64,000 bases of DNA from positions 555,550-619,549 of the forward strand of contig JAGNLV010000001.1 in NCBI GenBank assembly GCA_017999435.1, read 5' to 3'. The position numbers and the translations under genes were made by a program. Positions 1 to 36,598 of this stretch are shown in pieces. Source of the stretch: Candidatus Zixiibacteriota bacterium (lineage in GTDB: Bacteria > Zixibacteria > MSB-5A5 > GN15 > FEB-12). The first letter of the stretch is position 1. Every line of letters starts with the position of its first letter. The notes beneath the pieces are model-generated. The model was given only the letters and a program-made list of their open reading frames with translations. It ran no database searches and was not told where the DNA came from.

Positions 1-127
1 TCGGTCGGGGCACGCCGTTGACCGGCGAACGTCGTTGGCTGCAGAGCCCCGATGATCGCGGAATATCCTTGGTTGGCGAACCCCGTTGACCCGGCGACAT
101 CGTCGGTCGGGGCACGCCGTTGACCGG
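1..127. repeat. 25-bp direct repeat pair
   Basis: The 25 bases at 1-25 recur exactly at 103-127. The stretch between them contains further degenerate copies of the same theme (gttgac with cggcgacatcg-like words). No coding region is convincing here. It reads as decayed intergenic repeat DNA, and its left part may continue outside the window. Confidence 0.6.
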
Positions 128-26398: not shown

Positions 26399-27742
26399 TC
26401 ACGTCCGTTCGTTCCGGTCCACCTGCCCCCCTTCGTAATGCCCTTCGACCGCCACGATCCCCCCGCCTGCATCCCGCACAAACTTCAGCCGGAAATACGG
26501 GATGTCCGCAAACATGAACAGGTCCCCGCCCATTGGCGTCATCCGGAATTTCGGATTTCCCTCGCGCTGGTACACCAGCGCGCCGTTCTCCAGCGCGATG
26601 CGCCGGGGTCCGAAATCGCCGACATATTCCTGCAGCGCCGCGGCCTCGAGCGTCACCGGGTTCCGCTGCGCCTCCAGCCCGTCGATTTGCCAATCGTAGG
26701 TCGCGAGCAACTGCTCGTCCCCGCACTCCGCTTTCAGCTTCCGGTAGGCCTCCAGAAGCGCGACCTCGAGCGCCCGGTCGGCTGCGCACGCGATGTCCGG
26801 TGCGATCCCCGTCCCTTCCCAATTCGTCCCCGAAATCGGGTTGATCGCCCGCCCGAACGGCACCCTCACGCCCACCTCGAGGTTCGGAAATCCGTGCGTC
26901 GCCACCGGGTGCGCCCCACCGCCCGTGGTCTCCCCGACAACCGTCGCCCGCTTCAGATTCTTCAGATTGTACGTAAACTCTTCCGCCGCCGAAAAGGTGC
27001 CCCCCGAGGTGAGCACGTACAGGGGGACGTCGGCCATCTTCTCGCCGTCGACATAGCTCGTCGTCCAGAACTGCTGCAGCGAGTCCGTCTCGCGTACATA
27101 GAACGTATTCAGGTGCACCTGGTCCTTGAAGAAGTAACTCGTCAGAATCTGGATCATATCCGGGCTGCCCCCACCGTTGTCGCGCAGGTCGATAATGAGC
27201 GCGTCGGTGTGAGCCAGAAAATGCATCGCCCCGACCGCCGTCGCCCGCGCTTCCGGCAATCCGCTGAAACCGTCCAGCTTCAGGTACCCCACGTTGCCCG
27301 GCAGTTGTTCGGCTTTGCGGAACCCGAAATTGTCCAGCCGCGCCCGGCGCAGCTCCTCGGCCGCCGTGGGACGGTTGATCGTGTCGAGCATCGCCTCCAG
27401 TTGCGCCCGCGGGACATACCGCAGCCCGAAATGCCGATCGTGGCACACCGTCAGCAGATCCTCCGAAAGCCCCCGCGCGAACGTCCCCACCGTCGCCAGC
27501 GTGTCGTACGCCCCCTTCTTCAACTGCCGGCGCGCGTGCTCCCCCATCTTCTTCGCGACGTCCGGGAAGACGTAGTAGCGGTCGAGCGCCGCCGTCACGC
27601 TGTCGATGATCTCCGCTTTGACCGTCCGGTCGATCGCCGGCCCGGTGTCGTCGGGATCCGCCTGCGCCCCGGCCTCCGGCCCGCCGGCGAACACGGCAAC
27701 CGCCGCCCACATCATTGCAGCCCACAACGCCTGAAACTTCAT
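26399..27742 (-). CDS. Exported S41-family peptidase (IRBP/Tsp-like)
   Basis: 447 residues. Signal peptide (1-26), an N-terminal helical domain typical of the retinoid-binding/tricorn-like S41 branch, and the catalytic core with IDLRDNGGGSPDM and the nucleophile Ser251 in TSGGTFSAAEEF. GETTGGGAHP follows as in active homologues. No PDZ domain is visible. The last 110 residues (IALENGALVYQREG) resemble a small beta domain found at the end of many S41 and beta-lactamase-like secreted proteins. It lies 41 bases downstream of a MarR regulator gene and shares its transcript. Confidence 0.9.
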   Translation of the reverse strand: MKFQALWAAMMWAAVAVFAGGPEAGAQADPDDTGPAIDRTVKAEIIDSVTAALDRYYVFPDVAKKMGEHARRQLKKGAYDTLATVGTFARGLSEDLLTVCHDRHFGLRYVPRAQLEAMLDTINRPTAAEELRRARLDNFGFRKAEQLPGNVGYLKLDGFSGLPEARATAVGAMHFLAHTDALIIDLRDNGGGSPDMIQILTSYFFKDQVHLNTFYVRETDSLQQFWTTSYVDGEKMADVPLYVLTSGGTFSAAEEFTYNLKNLKRATVVGETTGGGAHPVATHGFPNLEVGVRVPFGRAINPISGTNWEGTGIAPDIACAADRALEVALLEAYRKLKAECGDEQLLATYDWQIDGLEAQRNPVTLEAAALQEYVGDFGPRRIALENGALVYQREGNPKFRMTPMGGDLFMFADIPYFRLKFVRDAGGGIVAVEGHYEGGQVDRNERT

Positions 27743-27783
27743 CGCTCACCTCCGCACTTCGGATGTTGGTCGTGCGGGAGCCG

Positions 27784-28278
27784 TTACGGAAGAATTCCCT
27801 CCCGCCGAAGTCTGGTCATGACGCGCTCGTACATGCTCGTCTCGTCGAGCTGCCGCTCCAGACGCCGGAGCGCCTCAAGGATGTCGCTCCCGTCGGTGCT
27901 CCCGAGCTCGGTCGAAGCGTCCGCGATCACCGCCCACACCGGCTCCAGCGCCCTGACCGTCTCCCGCCCGCGGTCGGTCAGACTCAGCAGCCGCCGACGG
28001 TAGTCGCCGGGGTCGCGGGTGGACCGCAACAGTCCGCGCCGCGTCAACTGCCCCGCCACCTGGTTGATCGCCGGATGAGTCAGCCCCAGATCCGTCGCCA
28101 CCGTCGTCAGCGGCGCCTCGTTGTGGTCCTTCAGGTAGTACACGACCGCAAACCAGCGCGCCTCAAACTCGACATTGAGCTCCCGGTACACCTGTGACAC
28201 ATCCCTCTGGAGGCGGTCCGCCAGTCGGCGCAGCCGGGTCGCCAACGCCAGCGAGCCGAGTTGTTCGATCACGTCCAT
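27784..28278 (-). CDS. MarR-family transcriptional regulator
   Basis: 164 residues. The winged-helix core is clear: PLTTVATDLGLTHPAINQVAGQLTRRGLL (recognition helix around residues 65-85), followed by the wing DPGDYRRRLLSLTDRG. The family binds palindromic DNA as a dimer and is often released by small ligands. A palindrome lies 34 bases upstream of the ATG (28312-28323). The S41 peptidase gene follows in the same transcript, so autoregulation of this pair is likely. The ligand is unknown. Confidence 0.9.
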   Translation of the reverse strand: MDVIEQLGSLALATRLRRLADRLQRDVSQVYRELNVEFEARWFAVVYYLKDHNEAPLTTVATDLGLTHPAINQVAGQLTRRGLLRSTRDPGDYRRRLLSLTDRGRETVRALEPVWAVIADASTELGSTDGSDILEALRRLERQLDETSMYERVMTRLRREGILP

Positions 28279-29830: not shown

Positions 29831-30871
29831 CTATCGCCGCACCGCGGCCCGCTCCCGCGCCGCCAGGTACAGACACAGCGGGTGCGCCGCGTCGAGATCG
29901 CCGGTGTGGACGAAGGCCCCCGCCCGGCACGCCCCCCGGCAGGCTGAGAAATTGTCGCACGATCGGCAGGGCTCTTTCACCCGCTCCCGCGGATACCGCG
30001 ACATCGCCGACATCTCCGGCGAATGCCAGATCTCCGGCAGGGGCCGTTGCCGGATATTGCCCACCCGGAACCGCCGGTGCGAGAGCGCCGTGCACGGGTA
30101 GATGTCGCCGTTCCCCTTCAGGTAGAACGTCTCCACGCCGGCCGTGCACTGGTGGAACCCGAACGTCGGCGGCACCGGCCCCCAGGCCACGTCGAAATCA
30201 ATCACCATCGACGCATCCTTCTCCATCGTCTCGGCGAACTCGAGCAGGCGCTGCACATCGGTGAACCCCAGCCGGCTCTTCACATCGCGGCGCCGCCCCC
30301 GCCCGGCCGGCGTGTAGCCGCAGAACCGCACGGCGTCGACCCCCCCCCGCTTGGCCAACTCGACCATCCGCGCGCCGTCGTCCATATTCTCCTCCCCGAT
30401 CAGCATGGCGAGAAACACCCGCGCTCCGAGCTCTTTGCAGACGCGGATCCCCGCGACTATCTTCTCGAACTGGGCCTCGTCCGTCCCCCGCATCCGCGTA
30501 TTCCGCTCGGGCGTGGATCCGTCAAGGCTGATCTGGAAAGCGCGCAGGCCGGCCGCCACCAGTCCCTCCGCCCGCCGCCGGTCAAGCAGCACCCCGTTGG
30601 TCGTGATGTTGCAGTTGATCCCCCGCTCCCCGGCGTAGGCGGTCAGTTCCTCGAGGTCCTCCCGGAGGAGCGGTTCCCCGCCCGTCCAGCCGATCATGCG
30701 CACCCCGATTTCCGCCATGGCCTCGATCACCCCCTTGCAGACCTCCGTCCCCATCTCGTCGTGGGGCCGCGTCCGGGCCGCCGTGTAGCAGTGCGGGCAG
30801 CGCAGGTTGCACTGGCTGGTGATCTCCCACCCCGCGATGATGTAGGGGGTGCCGCCGGGCTCGGCGCTCAT
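29831..30871 (-). CDS. Radical SAM/SPASM protein (second enzyme of the RiPP-like operon)
   Basis: 346 residues. The N-terminal radical SAM motif is CNLRCPHC (about 23-30), which holds the SAM-binding [4Fe-4S] cluster. WTGGEPLL and ITTNGVLL follow as in PqqE/SPASM enzymes. The C-terminus carries a SPASM-type cluster region: CTAGVETFYLKGNGDIYPC, then CRSCDNFSACRGAC and a last Cys near the end. Such enzymes modify peptides or small precursors by radical chemistry. It overlaps the upstream maturase by four bases (ATGA), so both are coupled behind the 33-codon peptide gene. Whether it acts on the same peptide or finishes another step is unknown. Confidence 0.88.
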   Translation of the reverse strand: MSAEPGGTPYIIAGWEITSQCNLRCPHCYTAARTRPHDEMGTEVCKGVIEAMAEIGVRMIGWTGGEPLLREDLEELTAYAGERGINCNITTNGVLLDRRRAEGLVAAGLRAFQISLDGSTPERNTRMRGTDEAQFEKIVAGIRVCKELGARVFLAMLIGEENMDDGARMVELAKRGGVDAVRFCGYTPAGRGRRRDVKSRLGFTDVQRLLEFAETMEKDASMVIDFDVAWGPVPPTFGFHQCTAGVETFYLKGNGDIYPCTALSHRRFRVGNIRQRPLPEIWHSPEMSAMSRYPRERVKEPCRSCDNFSACRGACRAGAFVHTGDLDAAHPLCLYLAARERAAVRR

Positions 30872-32205
30872 TGGTCCGCCCCTGTCGGCGCCTGCACCTG
30901 CGCCTCATACGACACGGCCACCATCCCCGGGAGATTATATTTCCAGGTCACGCACTCGCCGCGCTGCTCCCCCCGTTTCTCCTTGGCCCGCAGCGGGCAG
31001 CCCCCGGCGCAGAGCGGGAGAACGGCGCAGGCCCGGCATTCGCCCAGGGCGTAGGGATCCCAGTCGCGGTAGCTTTTCGCGTTGGCCGCCTGGTAGTCCT
31101 CCGGCGCCGTCTGAAGAAGACTCCCGATCGACCGCGCCGGATCGGTCGACAGCTCCTCCCAGCACCGGAAGAGATACCCCTGCGGCGAGACCACGTAGTG
31201 CGTCTCCGACAGCGCGCTGCAGTACCCCGCGCCCCCGAGCGCCTGCGGGTACTCCACCTGGCGGATGCCCCGCCGGAGCAGTTGCCGGTAGAGCTCCACC
31301 TGCGTCCGGGCGAACTCCTCGTCCGTGTAGCACCGGTCGCGCGTGTCGCTGCAGGCCGCCCCGGTCGACCGCACCTGCGCAAACTGCACCTTCACGCGCG
31401 GCAGGATCCCCTCCCGGTCCAAAAGCGCCATCACCTCGCAGGCCGAATCGATATTTTCCTTGTCCATGTTGATGCGCACGTTGATGTCGAGAATCCCCGC
31501 CGTCTCGCGCAGATTCGCGATAATCCGCTGAAACGTCCCCTTGCCGCTGCGCAGCTTCCGCCGGGCATCGTGCACCCCCTCCGGACCGTCGATCGTCACC
31601 TGCGCCCGTTCAATCCCCAGCTCTTTCAGCCGCTGCGCCGCCGCCCCGTCGAGGAGGTAGCCGTTGCTGATGATCGACCCCGGGATCACGTTGGCCCGCC
31701 GTTTCGCCGCCAGCTCCAGCAACTGCCGCTGCAGCCGCTCGACCAGCGGCAGGCAGAGCGTCGGCTCCCCGCCGAACCAGCACACGCGCAGCATTTCCGA
31801 CCGCACGAGTTGCCGCTCGGCGAACCGCAGCAGCGCCTCCTGCACCTCCGGGCTCATCGTCACCGCCGAACGCGATTCAAAGCAGTAGTCGCAGGCAAAG
31901 TTGCACGCCAGCGTCGGCGCAATCGTCAGCGTCAACACCACCCCCCCGAGACGCACCTGCTTGGCCGCCGACCGCAGCGCCCCGAACTGGTCGATCCCGT
32001 CGGGAATTAAAAACCCGCCCGCCTGCAGGCAGGCCACGAACTCCGCGTCCTGCGCGCTCGCGGACAGGCCCGGGTCGGCGAGCAGCTCCTGGACCCGCCC
32101 ATAGTGCTCCGGCTCGATCTCGGCCAGCGCCCCCGAATAACTGTTGTAGGCCAGGATGATCCCGTCCCGGGCCGGGATGAAGTGATTGTACGGCGACGGC
32201 TTCAC
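30868..32205 (-). CDS. Radical SAM/SPASM peptide maturase
   Basis: 445 residues. The first 90 residues (GIILAYNSYSGALAEIEPE) look like the N-terminal region found in radical SAM peptide maturases and may bind a leader peptide; that is inference. The radical SAM core starts with CNFACDYC (about 100-107), then WFGGEPTL. A SPASM/twitch region near the C-terminus has CRACAVLPLCAGGC and further Cys residues in GYCSAL, FRCWEE and GECVTW. The family installs thioether or carbon links in ribosomal peptides. The 33-codon peptide gene with two Cys lies 98 bases upstream on the same strand and is the obvious substrate candidate. Confidence 0.9.
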   Translation of the reverse strand: MKPSPYNHFIPARDGIILAYNSYSGALAEIEPEHYGRVQELLADPGLSASAQDAEFVACLQAGGFLIPDGIDQFGALRSAAKQVRLGGVVLTLTIAPTLACNFACDYCFESRSAVTMSPEVQEALLRFAERQLVRSEMLRVCWFGGEPTLCLPLVERLQRQLLELAAKRRANVIPGSIISNGYLLDGAAAQRLKELGIERAQVTIDGPEGVHDARRKLRSGKGTFQRIIANLRETAGILDINVRINMDKENIDSACEVMALLDREGILPRVKVQFAQVRSTGAACSDTRDRCYTDEEFARTQVELYRQLLRRGIRQVEYPQALGGAGYCSALSETHYVVSPQGYLFRCWEELSTDPARSIGSLLQTAPEDYQAANAKSYRDWDPYALGECRACAVLPLCAGGCPLRAKEKRGEQRGECVTWKYNLPGMVAVSYEAQVQAPTGADQ

Positions 32206-32254
32206 GGCGTCCTCTCACAATGCTGTCGGGTTGCCCCGCCTGTGCTCATGTGAC

Positions 32255-32283
32255 GCTGCACCGGCCCCGATGGCCGGTGCAGC
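32255..32283 (-). promoter_or_regulatory. 12-bp perfect hairpin between peptide and maturase genes
   Basis: gctgcaccggcc and ggccggtgcagc pair around a ccgat loop, 20 bases after the peptide stop. There is no T-run on the minus strand. It is well placed to act as an attenuator, a processing site or an mRNA stabiliser, giving more peptide than enzyme. Confidence 0.65.
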
Positions 32284-32303
32284 TTCGACTCAAACGGCCG
32301 TTC

Positions 32304-32405
32304 TCACCACACTCCGCAAATGATCTTCAACGGACCATTCACCTTGCAGATGATGTAGTGCGGCCTCTTCACCATCAGATCGTTGGGCAGTCTGATGAGC
32401 TTCAT
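32304..32405 (-). CDS. Candidate RiPP precursor peptide, 33 residues
   Basis: An ATG-TGA frame with an excellent ribosome site (aaggaggtg, five bases before the ATG). The peptide starts MKLIRLPNDLMVKRPHY and ends in two copies of an IIC-x-V motif: IICKV (Cys20) and IICGV (Cys30), linked by NGPLK, with a final Trp. The basic, hydrophobic N-terminal half would be leader and the Cys-containing C-terminal half the core. It precedes two radical SAM/SPASM genes on the same strand and follows a strong promoter with a long leader. No known RiPP family was recognised. The reading frame and initiation site are seen directly; its role as maturase substrate is inferred from context. Confidence 0.8.
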   Translation of the reverse strand: MKLIRLPNDLMVKRPHYIICKVNGPLKIICGVW

Positions 32406-32748
32406 ATGCACCTCCTTCTTGGAGTTATTGCTTCCCCGCCCCGGTCGGTCTGGCCGGCGCGGGACCTCAGGCCACTGTCAGTTATCGCGAACCGAGCGCC
32501 GCTTCGCACCGTCGGCGCGACGCCCTCTATCATTTCCGTGCCAACGGGCTGCTCCGGCGGCCGCGTTTGCCGTGCGATTCGTACTCATTAAACTTCCGTG
32601 ATAATCCGGCCGGCCGATTGAGACGCCGGCCCCGACCTGTCCGCCCTCCCCGCCATCCGGGTACCGCCTCTTCCTCCTCGCCTGGCTTCCCCCGCCAGAC
32701 GGAATGTTTCCCCTTCTGCCCCGCCCCGAACCAGTCTGTTGACCTTTT
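32406..32748 (-). other. Long leader of the RiPP-like operon
   Basis: About 340 bases lie between the predicted transcription start and the peptide ATG. The only frames are short and poorly initiated. One (32402-32533, minus) ends with its TGA overlapping the peptide ATG but has no ribosome site. A structured regulatory leader is possible; no known riboswitch was recognised. Confidence 0.4.
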
Positions 32749-32767
32749 AGAATACACTGAAAATAGT
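32739..32767 (+). promoter_or_regulatory. Candidate promoter for the hppD operon
   Basis: Plus strand TTGACC, a 17-base spacer, then AATAGT. It overlaps the minus-strand promoter at 32749-32777 almost completely. It would give hppD a leader of about 220 bases, opening with an 8-bp hairpin (ccggccgc/gcggccgg at 32791-32811). Confidence 0.45.
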
Positions 32768-32777
32768 CTTGTGTCAA
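32749..32777 (-). promoter_or_regulatory. Promoter of the RiPP-like operon
   Basis: Minus strand TTGACA, a 17-base spacer, then TATTCT: the best housekeeping-type promoter seen in the window, in an AT-rich island within GC-rich DNA. Confidence 0.65.
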
Positions 32778-32995: not shown

Positions 32996-34141
32996 ATGAG
33001 CAGCCCGCTCGGTATTCGCGGTTACGACTACGTGGAATTCTATGTCGGCTCCGCCCGCATGACCGCTTTCTGGTTCGCCCGCGCCCTCGGCCTCCAGCTC
33101 ACCGGCTATGCCGGCCCCGAAACCGGCGTCCGCGACCGCATCTCCTTCTATCTCACCCGCCACCGCCTCAAATTCGTCGTCACCTCCCCCCTCCAGCCCG
33201 ACACCTGGGACATCTGGGGGTGGATCACGAAGCATGGCGACGGGGTCAAACGCTGGGCGGTCGAGGTCGATTCCGTGGAGGACGCCTTCGCCTACGCCGC
33301 CAAACGGGGCGCCGTCATGGTCAAACGCCCCGAACGCATCTCCAATCGCCACGGCTACATCGACGAAGCCGCCATCCGCCTCTACGACGACACCGAACTC
33401 GTCTACGTCAACCGCGACCACTACCGCCACATCTTCCGCCCCGGCTTCTGCGAACCCCTCTTCTCCTTCGACGCCGGGCGCGACGACACCGGCCTGCTCG
33501 CCGTCGATCACATCGTCGGCAACGTCCGCGAGAACGAGATGAACCTCTGGGCCGAGTATTTCAACAACACCATGGATTTCGAAACCTTCGTCGATTTCGG
33601 CCCCGGCGACATCAGCACCAGGTATTCCTCCCTGCTGTCGAAAGTTGTGCGCTCGAAAGACTCAAAAATCCGCAACCCCATCAACGAACCGTACGAGGGA
33701 CTCAAGAAGTCCCAGATCGAGGAGTTCATCGAGCAGTACCGCGGCTCCGGCATCCAGCACGTCGCCCTCCGCACCGGCGACATCGTCGCCACCGTGTCCG
33801 CCCTCCGTCGCAACGGCGTCGAGTTCCTGGCTGTCCCCGACGCCTACTACGACCGGCTCCGCGGCCGCTCCGAGGTCATGTCCCGCCTGCGGGAGGACCT
33901 CGCCCTGCTCAAACAGCACGGCATCCTCTGCGACATCGAGAGCGACGGCTACCTGCTCCAGCTCTTCACCAAACCGATCGGCGACCGCCCGACCTTCTTC
34001 TTCGAAGTAATCCAGCGCGTCGGCAACAGCGAGGGGTTCGGCAAGGGCAACTTCCAGGCGCTCTTCGAATCCATCGAACTCGACCAGAAACTCCGGGGCA
34101 ACCTCGAAAAGGACAAAGTGGAAACCGCGCCAATCTGCTGA
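32996..34141 (+). CDS. hppD: 4-hydroxyphenylpyruvate dioxygenase
   Basis: 381 residues. It converts 4-hydroxyphenylpyruvate to homogentisate in tyrosine catabolism, using Fe(II) and O2. The two-domain vicinal-oxygen-chelate fold is visible. Predicted iron ligands are His172 (VDHIVGNV), His255 (IQHVALRTGDI) and Glu337 (FFFEVIQR). The C-terminal helix region GFGKGNFQALFESIE, which gates the active site, is present. agaggaga precedes the ATG. It heads the catabolic run; hmgA follows after 34 bases. Confidence 0.96.
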   Translation: MSSPLGIRGYDYVEFYVGSARMTAFWFARALGLQLTGYAGPETGVRDRISFYLTRHRLKFVVTSPLQPDTWDIWGWITKHGDGVKRWAVEVDSVEDAFAYAAKRGAVMVKRPERISNRHGYIDEAAIRLYDDTELVYVNRDHYRHIFRPGFCEPLFSFDAGRDDTGLLAVDHIVGNVRENEMNLWAEYFNNTMDFETFVDFGPGDISTRYSSLLSKVVRSKDSKIRNPINEPYEGLKKSQIEEFIEQYRGSGIQHVALRTGDIVATVSALRRNGVEFLAVPDAYYDRLRGRSEVMSRLREDLALLKQHGILCDIESDGYLLQLFTKPIGDRPTFFFEVIQRVGNSEGFGKGNFQALFESIELDQKLRGNLEKDKVETAPIC

Positions 34142-34175
34142 TCGGCGCCTCCCGCTGAAGGAAAGGAACCTCCCG

Positions 34176-35339
34176 ATGCCGTTCTACCATCGTCTCGGCG
34201 ACCTGCCGCGCGTGAAACACACGACTTTCTACAAGCCCGACGGCGTGTCCCTCTACCGCGAGGAACTCTTCTCCAGCAAGGGCTTCTCCGGCGTCTATGC
34301 CACCCGGTACCGCCTCCATATGCCCACCCAGGTGGCCCGCTCGCGCGAGATCCCCTTCCACAAGAACGTCGGCTGGCCCGAGGCCGAGGTCCTCTACTAC
34401 CACTTCTTCACCGACGACAAGCCCGGCGGCGGCAACTTCATCACCGCCCGCCACATCTTCCTCGAAAACCCCCACACCGTCATCTCGGCCGCCCGCGTCA
34501 CCGAAGACACGCCGGATTTCTACCGCAACGCCTACGCCGCCGAGTATGTCCTCGTCCACCGCGGCCGCGGCCTCTTCAAGAGCGAGTTCGGCGACATCCC
34601 CTTCCTCGAGGGAGACCAGTTCATCATCCCCCGCGCCGTCACCTGGCAGATGAAATTCGACGACTACGCGAACACCAAACTCCTCATCGTCGAATCCGAC
34701 ACCGCTTTCGAGATCCCCCGCGAGTACCGCAACGACTACGGCCAGCTCGAGGAACACGCCCCCTACTGCGAACGCGACTTCAAAGTCCCCTCCGCTCTCG
34801 ACCCCAAAGACGAACGCGGCGAATTCCGCATCATCATCAAAGCCGGCCGCCGCTACTTCGAACACATCGCCCCCGTCCACCCCTTTGATGTGGTCGGGTG
34901 GGACGGCTTCCTCTACCCCTACGCCTTCAACATCCGCGATTACCACGCCAAGGTCGGCCGCATCCACCTCCCCCCGCCCATCCACCTCGCTTGGCGGACC
35001 GGCAACTTCGTCCTGTGCAACTTCGTCCCCCGCCCCTTCGACTTCCACCCCCACGCCGTCCCCGCCCCCTATGTGCACTCCAACATCGACAGCGACGAGG
35101 TCCTCTACTACGTCGAGGGGGATTTTATGTCCCGCAGCGGGGTGCGCGAGGGCTCCATCACCCTCCACCCAGGCGGCATGCCCCACGGCCCCCAGCCGGG
35201 CCGGACCGAAGCCTCGATCGGCAAGCCCGGCACCGACGAATACGCCGTCATGATCGACACCTACGCCCCCCTTCGCCCCACCCTCAACGTGAGAGAAACG
35301 CTCGACCCGGCTTACGCCCAGTCGTGGCTGGAACCGTAG
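34176..35339 (+). CDS. hmgA: Homogentisate 1,2-dioxygenase
   Basis: 387 residues, a little shorter than the animal and pseudomonad enzymes (about 430). It opens the homogentisate ring to maleylacetoacetate. Predicted Fe ligands in the C-terminal cupin are His301 and Glu308 (HSNIDSDEVLYY) and His337 (LHPGGMPHGPQPG). The signature segments IPRAVTWQM and FNIRDYHAKVGRIH are clear. aaggaa lies upstream of the ATG. It follows hppD in the same transcript. Confidence 0.95.
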   Translation: MPFYHRLGDLPRVKHTTFYKPDGVSLYREELFSSKGFSGVYATRYRLHMPTQVARSREIPFHKNVGWPEAEVLYYHFFTDDKPGGGNFITARHIFLENPHTVISAARVTEDTPDFYRNAYAAEYVLVHRGRGLFKSEFGDIPFLEGDQFIIPRAVTWQMKFDDYANTKLLIVESDTAFEIPREYRNDYGQLEEHAPYCERDFKVPSALDPKDERGEFRIIIKAGRRYFEHIAPVHPFDVVGWDGFLYPYAFNIRDYHAKVGRIHLPPPIHLAWRTGNFVLCNFVPRPFDFHPHAVPAPYVHSNIDSDEVLYYVEGDFMSRSGVREGSITLHPGGMPHGPQPGRTEASIGKPGTDEYAVMIDTYAPLRPTLNVRETLDPAYAQSWLEP

Positions 35340-35416
35340 GCCAGGGGCGCGCTTGAACCGATCGCCGATTCCGCTGGCGATCGGCCCCCCGAACCATGTA
35401 TCTTGAGGGATGCGAA

Positions 35417-36598
35417 ATGATGACCGTGCCCACTGACGAGGTGCCTGCCATGATCTATATACCGGAGTACGTCCGCTCCCTCGAACCCTACCGCGCCGGC
35501 AAGCCGATTGGCGAACTGGCGCGCGAGCGCAATCTCACCCGCATCGTCAAGCTGGCCTCCAACGAGAACCCGCTCGGTCCCTCGCCCCGAGCGATGGCCG
35601 CGGTGCGGGAGGCCGTCGCCGAAATGCACCGCTACCCCGACCCCCGCGCCTGGGAACTCGTCCAGGCTCTCTCCCGCAAGTACCGCATCCGAACCGAACA
35701 CATCGTCTGCGGCCACGGCACCGACGCCCTCCTCGGCTACATCGTCGCCGCCTTCTCCGAACCCGGCGACGAAGTCCTCACTTCCGACGGCACTTTCATC
35801 GGCATCTACGTCAGCACCCTCAAACAGGGCCGCACCCTGCGCAAGGTCCCGCTCAAGGACTACGGGTACGACCTCGACGGCATCCTGCGCGCAGTCACGC
35901 CCCGCACCCGCCTCATCTTCATCGCCAACCCCAACAACCCGACCGGCACCATGATCCCGCGCGATGAATTCGAGGCCTTCATGGACAGAGTCCCCGGCGA
36001 TGTCCTCGTCGTCCTCGACGAGGCCTACTACACGTACGCCGGCGTCTTTCCCGACTACCCCCAGGGCGTCTCGTACTGGTACGACAACATGGTCGTGACC
36101 CGGACGCTGTCGAAGTCCTACGGCCTCGGCGGGCTCCGCGTCGGCTTCGCGGTCGGCCTCAGCCACATCATCGAGGCCATTTTCAAGGTCCGCTACCCCT
36201 TCGAGCCGCACCACCTCGCCCAGGCGGCGGCCATCGCGGCTCTCGACGACGACGAATTCCTCGAGCGCACCGTCCGCACCAACACCGCCTCGCTCGCCCG
36301 CATGAGAGAGGCGTTCGCCGGCCTCGGCATCCGCCAGATCGACACCTACGCCAACTTCATCCTCCTGCTCATGCCCTCCCAGGCGCTCGCCGAGGAGTTC
36401 TACAGCCGCTGCCTCGAACAGGGCCTCATCGTCCGCCCCGTCGCCCCCTACGGCATCCCCAACGGAATCCGCATCAACTCCGGCACCGACGACGAAACCG
36501 CGTTCGCCCTCGACGTTATCGCCGGCGTGTGGGCCGAGCTGCAGCGGACCGGGCGGCTCGGCAGCGACGACACGCCGCCGCGAAGGGTTCCCCGATGA
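35417..36598 (+). CDS. HisC-like PLP aminotransferase, probably for tyrosine/phenylalanine
   Basis: 393 residues, fold-type I class II aminotransferase of the histidinol-phosphate branch. Motifs: LASNENPLGPSP, NPNNPTGT, LDEAYYTYA and the PLP-lysine segment TRTLSKSYGLGGLRVGF. By sequence alone it would be called HisC. It sits between hmgA and the FAH gene and no other histidine gene is near, so it probably makes 4-hydroxyphenylpyruvate from tyrosine. The start at 35417 is preceded by gaggga at six bases; ATGs at 35420 and 35450 are alternatives. The stop overlaps the next ATG (ATGA). Confidence 0.88.
   Translation: MMTVPTDEVPAMIYIPEYVRSLEPYRAGKPIGELARERNLTRIVKLASNENPLGPSPRAMAAVREAVAEMHRYPDPRAWELVQALSRKYRIRTEHIVCGHGTDALLGYIVAAFSEPGDEVLTSDGTFIGIYVSTLKQGRTLRKVPLKDYGYDLDGILRAVTPRTRLIFIANPNNPTGTMIPRDEFEAFMDRVPGDVLVVLDEAYYTYAGVFPDYPQGVSYWYDNMVVTRTLSKSYGLGGLRVGFAVGLSHIIEAIFKVRYPFEPHHLAQAAAIAALDDDEFLERTVRTNTASLARMREAFAGLGIRQIDTYANFILLLMPSQALAEEFYSRCLEQGLIVRPVAPYGIPNGIRINSGTDDETAFALDVIAGVWAELQRTGRLGSDDTPPRRVPR

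Follow-up and report, generated by a model that had tools for sequence, protein, structure and literature searches.

The window, a 64,000-nucleotide stretch of a Candidatus Zixiibacteriota contig (JAGNLV010000001.1), carries on its minus strand, from 32405 down to 29831, a compact cassette made up of a putative precursor peptide gene, a hairpin and two radical SAM/SPASM genes, called here maturases 1 and 2 (Table 1). An initial annotation had proposed a 33-codon gene with a strong ribosome-binding site, a hairpin, and two SPASM genes that it called coupled; each of these was found in its place, as were the two IIC-x-V repeats that it read in the peptide, IICKV at residues 18-22 and IICGV at residues 28-32, which hold Cys20 and Cys30. 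Residues 1-15 (MKxIxxP...KRP) are a probable recognition part and residues 16-33 (HYIICKVNGPLKIICGVW) a probable core, the putative leader/core border lying between them. The ATG of maturase 2 overlaps the stop codon of maturase 1 by 4 nt (ATGA), and the two are therefore probably translationally coupled. A candidate promoter matching 10 of 12 consensus positions lies ~345 nt upstream of the precursor gene; five sigma-70-like sites were found in the scanned region, with 0.5 expected. Strong ribosome sites also precede the related precursor genes described below, whose frames were chosen partly by ribosome-site strength.

Table 1. Features of the cassette and of maturase 1 (window positions or residues), with the lineage C peptides of related loci
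Feature	Position	Strand	Details
Candidate operon promoter, sigma-70-like	32749..32777	-	TTGACA - 17 nt - TATTCT, consensus match only
Ribosome-binding site AGGAGGT	32410..32416	-	4 nt before precursor ATG (read from sequence)
Precursor peptide gene	32304..32405	-	MKLIRLPNDLMVKRPHYIICKVNGPLKIICGVW, 33 codons + stop (translation)
RNA hairpin	32255..32283	-	between precursor and maturase 1
Maturase 1	30868..32205	-	445 aa, GTG start
Maturase 2	29831..30871	-	346 aa, ATG start
Maturase 1 N-terminal domain	residues about 1-85		RRE-like; three strands + three helices before radical SAM barrel
Maturase 1 radical SAM core	C100, C104, C107		CxxxCxxC
Maturase 1 SPASM domain	C328, C347, C389, C392, C398, C402, C417		
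Lineage C peptides	L139:1541-1861, L143:4988-5176, L163:2928-3071		

Compared on its own with 132 Zixibacteria genomes, the query peptide has one other strong match (E=1.9e-5), in G063, a genome from another family in the phylum. This homologue, MKIITMPGIEPILKPYLIICGVKGPLRIICGHY, immediately precedes maturases that share 55% and 56% identity with the query's, in the same operon position, and aligns with the query peptide without gaps: 16 of 33 residues are identical, and the score of 88 compares with a mean of 21.8 for 20,000 shuffles (sd 4.9, maximum 63). It is the kind of conserved short frame with IIC repeats beside homologous maturases on which the initial annotation had staked its claim in advance. 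Two far weaker matches, in G025 and G056, likewise adjoin maturase 1; the G025 peptide, MKLITVTPTTLVKKPHFIICMDRH, ends after the first IIC and has one Cys. A profile (A1) built from 17 precursor peptides of the query's group found 21 copies at E<1e-5 in 14 of the 132 genomes, all within maturase-1 operons, a count that is partly circular, most matched copies having been in the profile. Copies absent from the profile were found as well, a G049 match (E=7e-4) leading to three tandem copies of the MRFIEKRQ..CP..C.....YILPPW type. A match in G069 (E 0.002) was set aside as probably fortuitous.

Codon differences between sister operons point the same way. In a close genome pair with two tandem group A precursor genes there are 12 synonymous codons, a TTG/ATG start difference and no amino acid changes, while the spacer between the tandem genes is ~63% identical; across the four tandem group B genes of G050 and G042, 29 synonymous codon differences are seen versus 2 non-synonymous. 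Purifying selection acts on the sister precursor genes, and the 33-codon frame is a genuine gene, beyond chance.

The query hairpin has a 12-bp perfect stem (GCTGCACCGGCC/GGCCGGTGCAGC) and a 5-nt loop, and its region folds at -44.6 kcal/mol (z -3.3 versus shuffled sequence). The stretch after the precursor has z of -3.7 in the G063 operon (L155) and of -5.6, -4.7, -4.6, -3.4, -4.3 and -5.1 in L104, L106, L108, L119, L121 and L123, respectively; at L114 (z -0.7) a strong fold was not seen. Stem sequences are unrelated among operons, and a hairpin follows the precursor in most of the operons folded. A search of the window against Rfam gave nothing at gathering scores. A classical terminator was considered for the query hairpin and rejected as unlikely, because no U-tract follows the stem there or in L155. 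The simplest reading is that the hairpin may act as a stabilising or processing element, raising the amount of peptide over enzyme.

Maturase 1 gave an AlphaFold2 model with a mean pLDDT of 91.3. Its best full-length structural match is CteB, the thioether-forming SCIFF maturase (5WHY/5WGG; Z about 27 over residues 3-436, 18% identity), which shares the seven-Cys SPASM layout; the next is TigE (8vpo; Z 22.6 over residues 1-436), a cyclopropylglycine enzyme of the Tig system. Both matches take in the N-terminal domain, the counterpart of which binds the leader in CteB, and the three radical SAM and seven SPASM cysteines are invariant or nearly so among relatives. Because the matches span this domain and the Fe-S cysteines are kept, there is good support for the prediction that maturase 1 binds the leader and oxidises the core by radical chemistry. 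The N-terminal region that the initial annotation had termed maturase-like can be described more precisely, from its predicted fold, as a well-supported candidate leader-binding (RRE-like) domain of the CteB kind. Maturase 2, which partners maturase 1 in group A operons, has a radical SAM motif (CNLRCPHC) and a SPASM domain, without a leader-binding domain. Its nearest models are MftC, AhbD, NirJ2 and PqqE, all below cut-off; at 149.8 bits to TIGR02109 (cut-off 381) it stands outside PqqE.

Relatives of maturase 1 at E<=1e-70 are present in 36 of the 132 Zixibacteria genomes, and the best relatives outside the phylum, from a scan that used exact patterns and may miss loci, are ~30-37% identical to it. 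In the maturase 1 tree the Zixibacteria sequences form three lineages, in agreement with peptide type. Lineage A, which includes the query, has MKxIExP...KPCPCYxxLFxILPPW or IIC-type peptides, in one to four copies that precede maturase 1, lie between the two enzymes or follow maturase 2; what stays constant in the group is the MKxIxxP start, the Pro-(Cys) segment in the middle and the hydrophobic tail. As a family hallmark the IIC-x-V repeat held in part: the exact doublet marks a sub-type, its query-type core confined to few genomes, but most relatives carry KPCPCYxxLFxILPPW. Lineage B peptides (MxYLIDP...C...C...PLYG[IV]; L117-L140, L161-L166), a type absent from NCBIfam and Pfam, are encoded by as many as four genes in one operon, beside a maturase 2 that differs from the lineage A enzyme and is closest to the nif11_3 and GDL-trio models. 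Lineage C peptides are longer and Cys-rich, start with MNWLVEP (MNWLV.P), and lie downstream of a single maturase; a second radical SAM gene was not detected in lineage C loci. Tandem precursor copies combine a constant start with a varied core, and each aligned precursor of groups A and B retains at least one Cys.

At the database level the module falls outside the known sactipeptide, ranthipeptide and SCIFF families, as the initial annotation had supposed. Ten types of precursor, compared with NCBIfam and Pfam at E up to 10, gave one weak match only, of a group C peptide to NCBIfam CefA (Cys-every-fifth; 13.4 bits, cut-off 30); the query peptide matched nothing in either. Both maturases fall short of every NCBIfam equivalog cut-off by a wide margin, and maturase 1 is about equally distant from the Clo7bot and TIGR04463 models. 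Like Clo7bot, it and its Zixibacteria relatives align over their full length to TIGR04334 (277-337 bits, query 277), short Cys-containing peptides adjoin the maturase, and one group B peptide locus weakly resembles TIGR04333 (E about 0.05). However, the TIGR04334 cut-off is 600 bits, none of the 132 phylum genomes has a TIGR04333 peptide over its cut-off (31 bits), the query operon has a second SPASM enzyme, and the cores differ. TIGR04463, the maturase of Cys-rich peptides, is matched at 280-330 bits over the full length (query 284.2) and, among lineages outside the phylum, comes nearest in the maturase tree, but these scores lie outside the family (cut-off 525), and at two related loci, L007 and L008, the neighbouring peptide is long, with CGA-type repeats, a kind of peptide that the query locus does not have. 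For all the structural likeness to CteB, the score to the SCIFF maturase model TIGR03974 is 64.5 bits (cut-off 425), and SCIFF is a six-Cys peptide, whereas the query precursor has two Cys.

Pairs of radical SAM enzymes have precedents: thuricin CD and ruminococcin C each use two in a small-peptide pathway (PMC12093266, PMC8188230). The query operon resembles these in its pairing, but its enzymes belong to separate subfamilies, only one of them has a recognition domain, and it lacks a bacteriocin transporter set. The open-access literature searched has no mention of TIGR04463, TIGR04334, NF038107, Clo7bot or Cys-every-fifth, and the parts of the Zixibacteria biosynthetic-gene-cluster literature consulted do not describe the module. 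The general pattern of a radical SAM RiPP, a conserved short precursor gene adjoining a radical SAM/SPASM maturase with a recognition domain, is present; because the maturases score below cut-offs, the peptides are unmatched and the families go unmentioned in the open-access literature, the system is rated a variant of radical SAM RiPP rather than a new kind. A new subfamily is the best reading of the sequences.

The most probable interpretation (roughly 80%) is a minimal radical SAM RiPP module, in which the leader docks on maturase 1, a Cys thioether is formed, and maturase 2 makes a second change; that the two enzymes remodel the 33-residue peptide is almost certain. The peptide would be produced in excess over the enzymes, the hairpin probably protecting the short message or limiting read-through. 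The putative leader, MKLIRLPNDLMVKRP, is the predicted ligand of maturase 1 residues 1-85, its MKLIRLP strand presumably docking on the RRE-like domain, and maturase 1 would then oxidise the core via its radical SAM and auxiliary Fe-S clusters. By analogy, thioether formation at Cys is most likely the chemistry, an assignment that rests on distant resemblance (18% identity to CteB; 104 bits to the PapB model, cut-off 340): the sulfur of Cys20 and/or Cys30 would be joined to a carbon of a neighbouring residue, with a loss of 2 Da per link. The coupled maturase 2, without a recognition domain of its own, would make a second radical modification of the same peptide, perhaps, to judge weakly, toward the C-terminal aromatic residue. 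Export and trimming would be carried out by genes elsewhere, or the product may stay in the cell. Against this stand the absence of the usual Cys-rich ranthipeptide or sactipeptide core (the query has two Cys, and peptides such as MKLITVTPTTLVKKPHFIICMDRH have one) and of a conserved peptidase or exporter, unusual for a secreted RiPP.

Other roles for the enzymes and the short frame can be imagined. Each maturase might make a non-thioether radical change (a cyclopropyl residue, epimerisation, a carbon-carbon cyclophane) in the Ile/Val-rich core, with Cys otherwise used, for instance in a metal site: TigE, a cyclopropylglycine enzyme, is the full-length structural match next after CteB, and Ile and aromatic residues abound in the IICxV and ILPPW cores. 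All aligned group A and B peptides retain Cys, however, and no other chemically distinctive core residue is retained throughout; CteB, the best structural match, forms thioethers, and non-thioether chemistry appears unlikely. The frame might instead be a regulatory or leader ORF, or chance, and no substrate of the maturases; it is short, and its query-type core is found in few genomes, but conserved sequence, length and position, purifying selection on sister genes, and tandem multiplication with shifts of position relative to the enzymes leave this very improbable.

A pathway like that of mycofactocin, also unlikely and marginally behind non-thioether chemistry, would have maturase 2 decarboxylate or cross-link a C-terminal Val-Trp (or His-Tyr); the RRE of maturase 1 would stand in for MftB, and cleavage at the C terminus within the cell would later release a small redox molecule. 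Maturase 2 is MftC-like, the mycofactocin maturase model being the best NCBIfam match of the L155 enzyme (187.7 bits; 164.1 for the query), and the absence of a conserved exporter or peptidase beside the operon would fit; mycofactocin precursors end in CGVY, which the ICGVW (as in the query) or ICGHY ends of the query sub-type recall. Both maturase 2 scores are nevertheless below the MftC cut-off (265), the precursor matches no NCBIfam model, that of the mycofactocin precursor MftA included, the end motif is absent from most relatives, many in group A ending without an aromatic residue (PPGPK, PPR, PPLQD, PPNPVK, PVCSID), and no MftD/E/F-like genes were recognised among the neighbours. Less probable again is a tryptophan analogue of mycofactocin, in which the enzymes in series would turn the C-terminal IICG-[V/H]-[W/Y] into a small intracellular cofactor-like molecule, the aromatic end being decarboxylated or cross-linked and the recognition domain being provided by a thioether-type maturase.

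If the preferred reading of a minimal radical SAM RiPP module is correct, this would be a previously undescribed module for peptide modification, distributed across a phylum that has no cultured members, and a compact case of two unlike radical enzymes sharing one 33-residue substrate. At least three precursor types with related maturases (MKxIEKP...ILPPW/IICGVW; MxYLIDP...PLYGI; MNWLVEP...) are small enough for synthesis, and the leader motif together with the genomic signature (a hairpin after the precursor, paired SPASM enzymes) should let such systems be found.

When the window and 16 related regions were compared, the genes near the maturases included no transporter, peptidase or regulator that recurs beyond chance families; the pair forms a minimal module, with neither transporter nor protease conserved, and the initial annotation's remark that neither adjoins the operon extends to the related loci examined. 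The module sits in unrelated genomic places. At the query it adjoins a divergent operon (window 32996-36598) that looks like tyrosine catabolism, with a glyoxalase-family gene like 4-hydroxyphenylpyruvate dioxygenase, a homogentisate dioxygenase-like gene and an aminotransferase. Downstream of the cassette on the same strand (window 26399-28278) are an S41 peptidase gene (26399-27742) and a MarR-type regulator; at L169 an S41 gene of similar appearance is found about 2.3 kb beyond the operon, a recurrence that is probably chance.

Several individual loci show further variation. L110 (G055:C5:36828-37515) has four tandem precursors between its maturases, one broken by a stop codon, which read as signs of duplication and decay. 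At L004:4614-7329, maturase 1 is present as two tandem copies (46% and 52% to the query), with a single precursor and a single maturase 2 for both. The Tyr of the lineage B PLYG motif is conserved and is a possible target of that lineage's second enzyme. The host genome itself has a second, paralogous system of lineage B (G000:C2, about 514693-519865; L121:693-5865; L182), with four MxYL[IVL][DS]P...YG-type peptides, a maturase 1 (35%) and a different maturase 2, after which comes an ABC exporter gene (L182:12481-14259) that lacks a C39 domain. In Thermus composti, a peptide ending in Trp, MRWVVKPGLRIGPNGGCDVNCGSNSGCVQNQKLW (MRWVVKP...W; L071:7372-7476), directly follows a maturase-1 relative; the M-x-hydrophobic-x-x-P start may be general.
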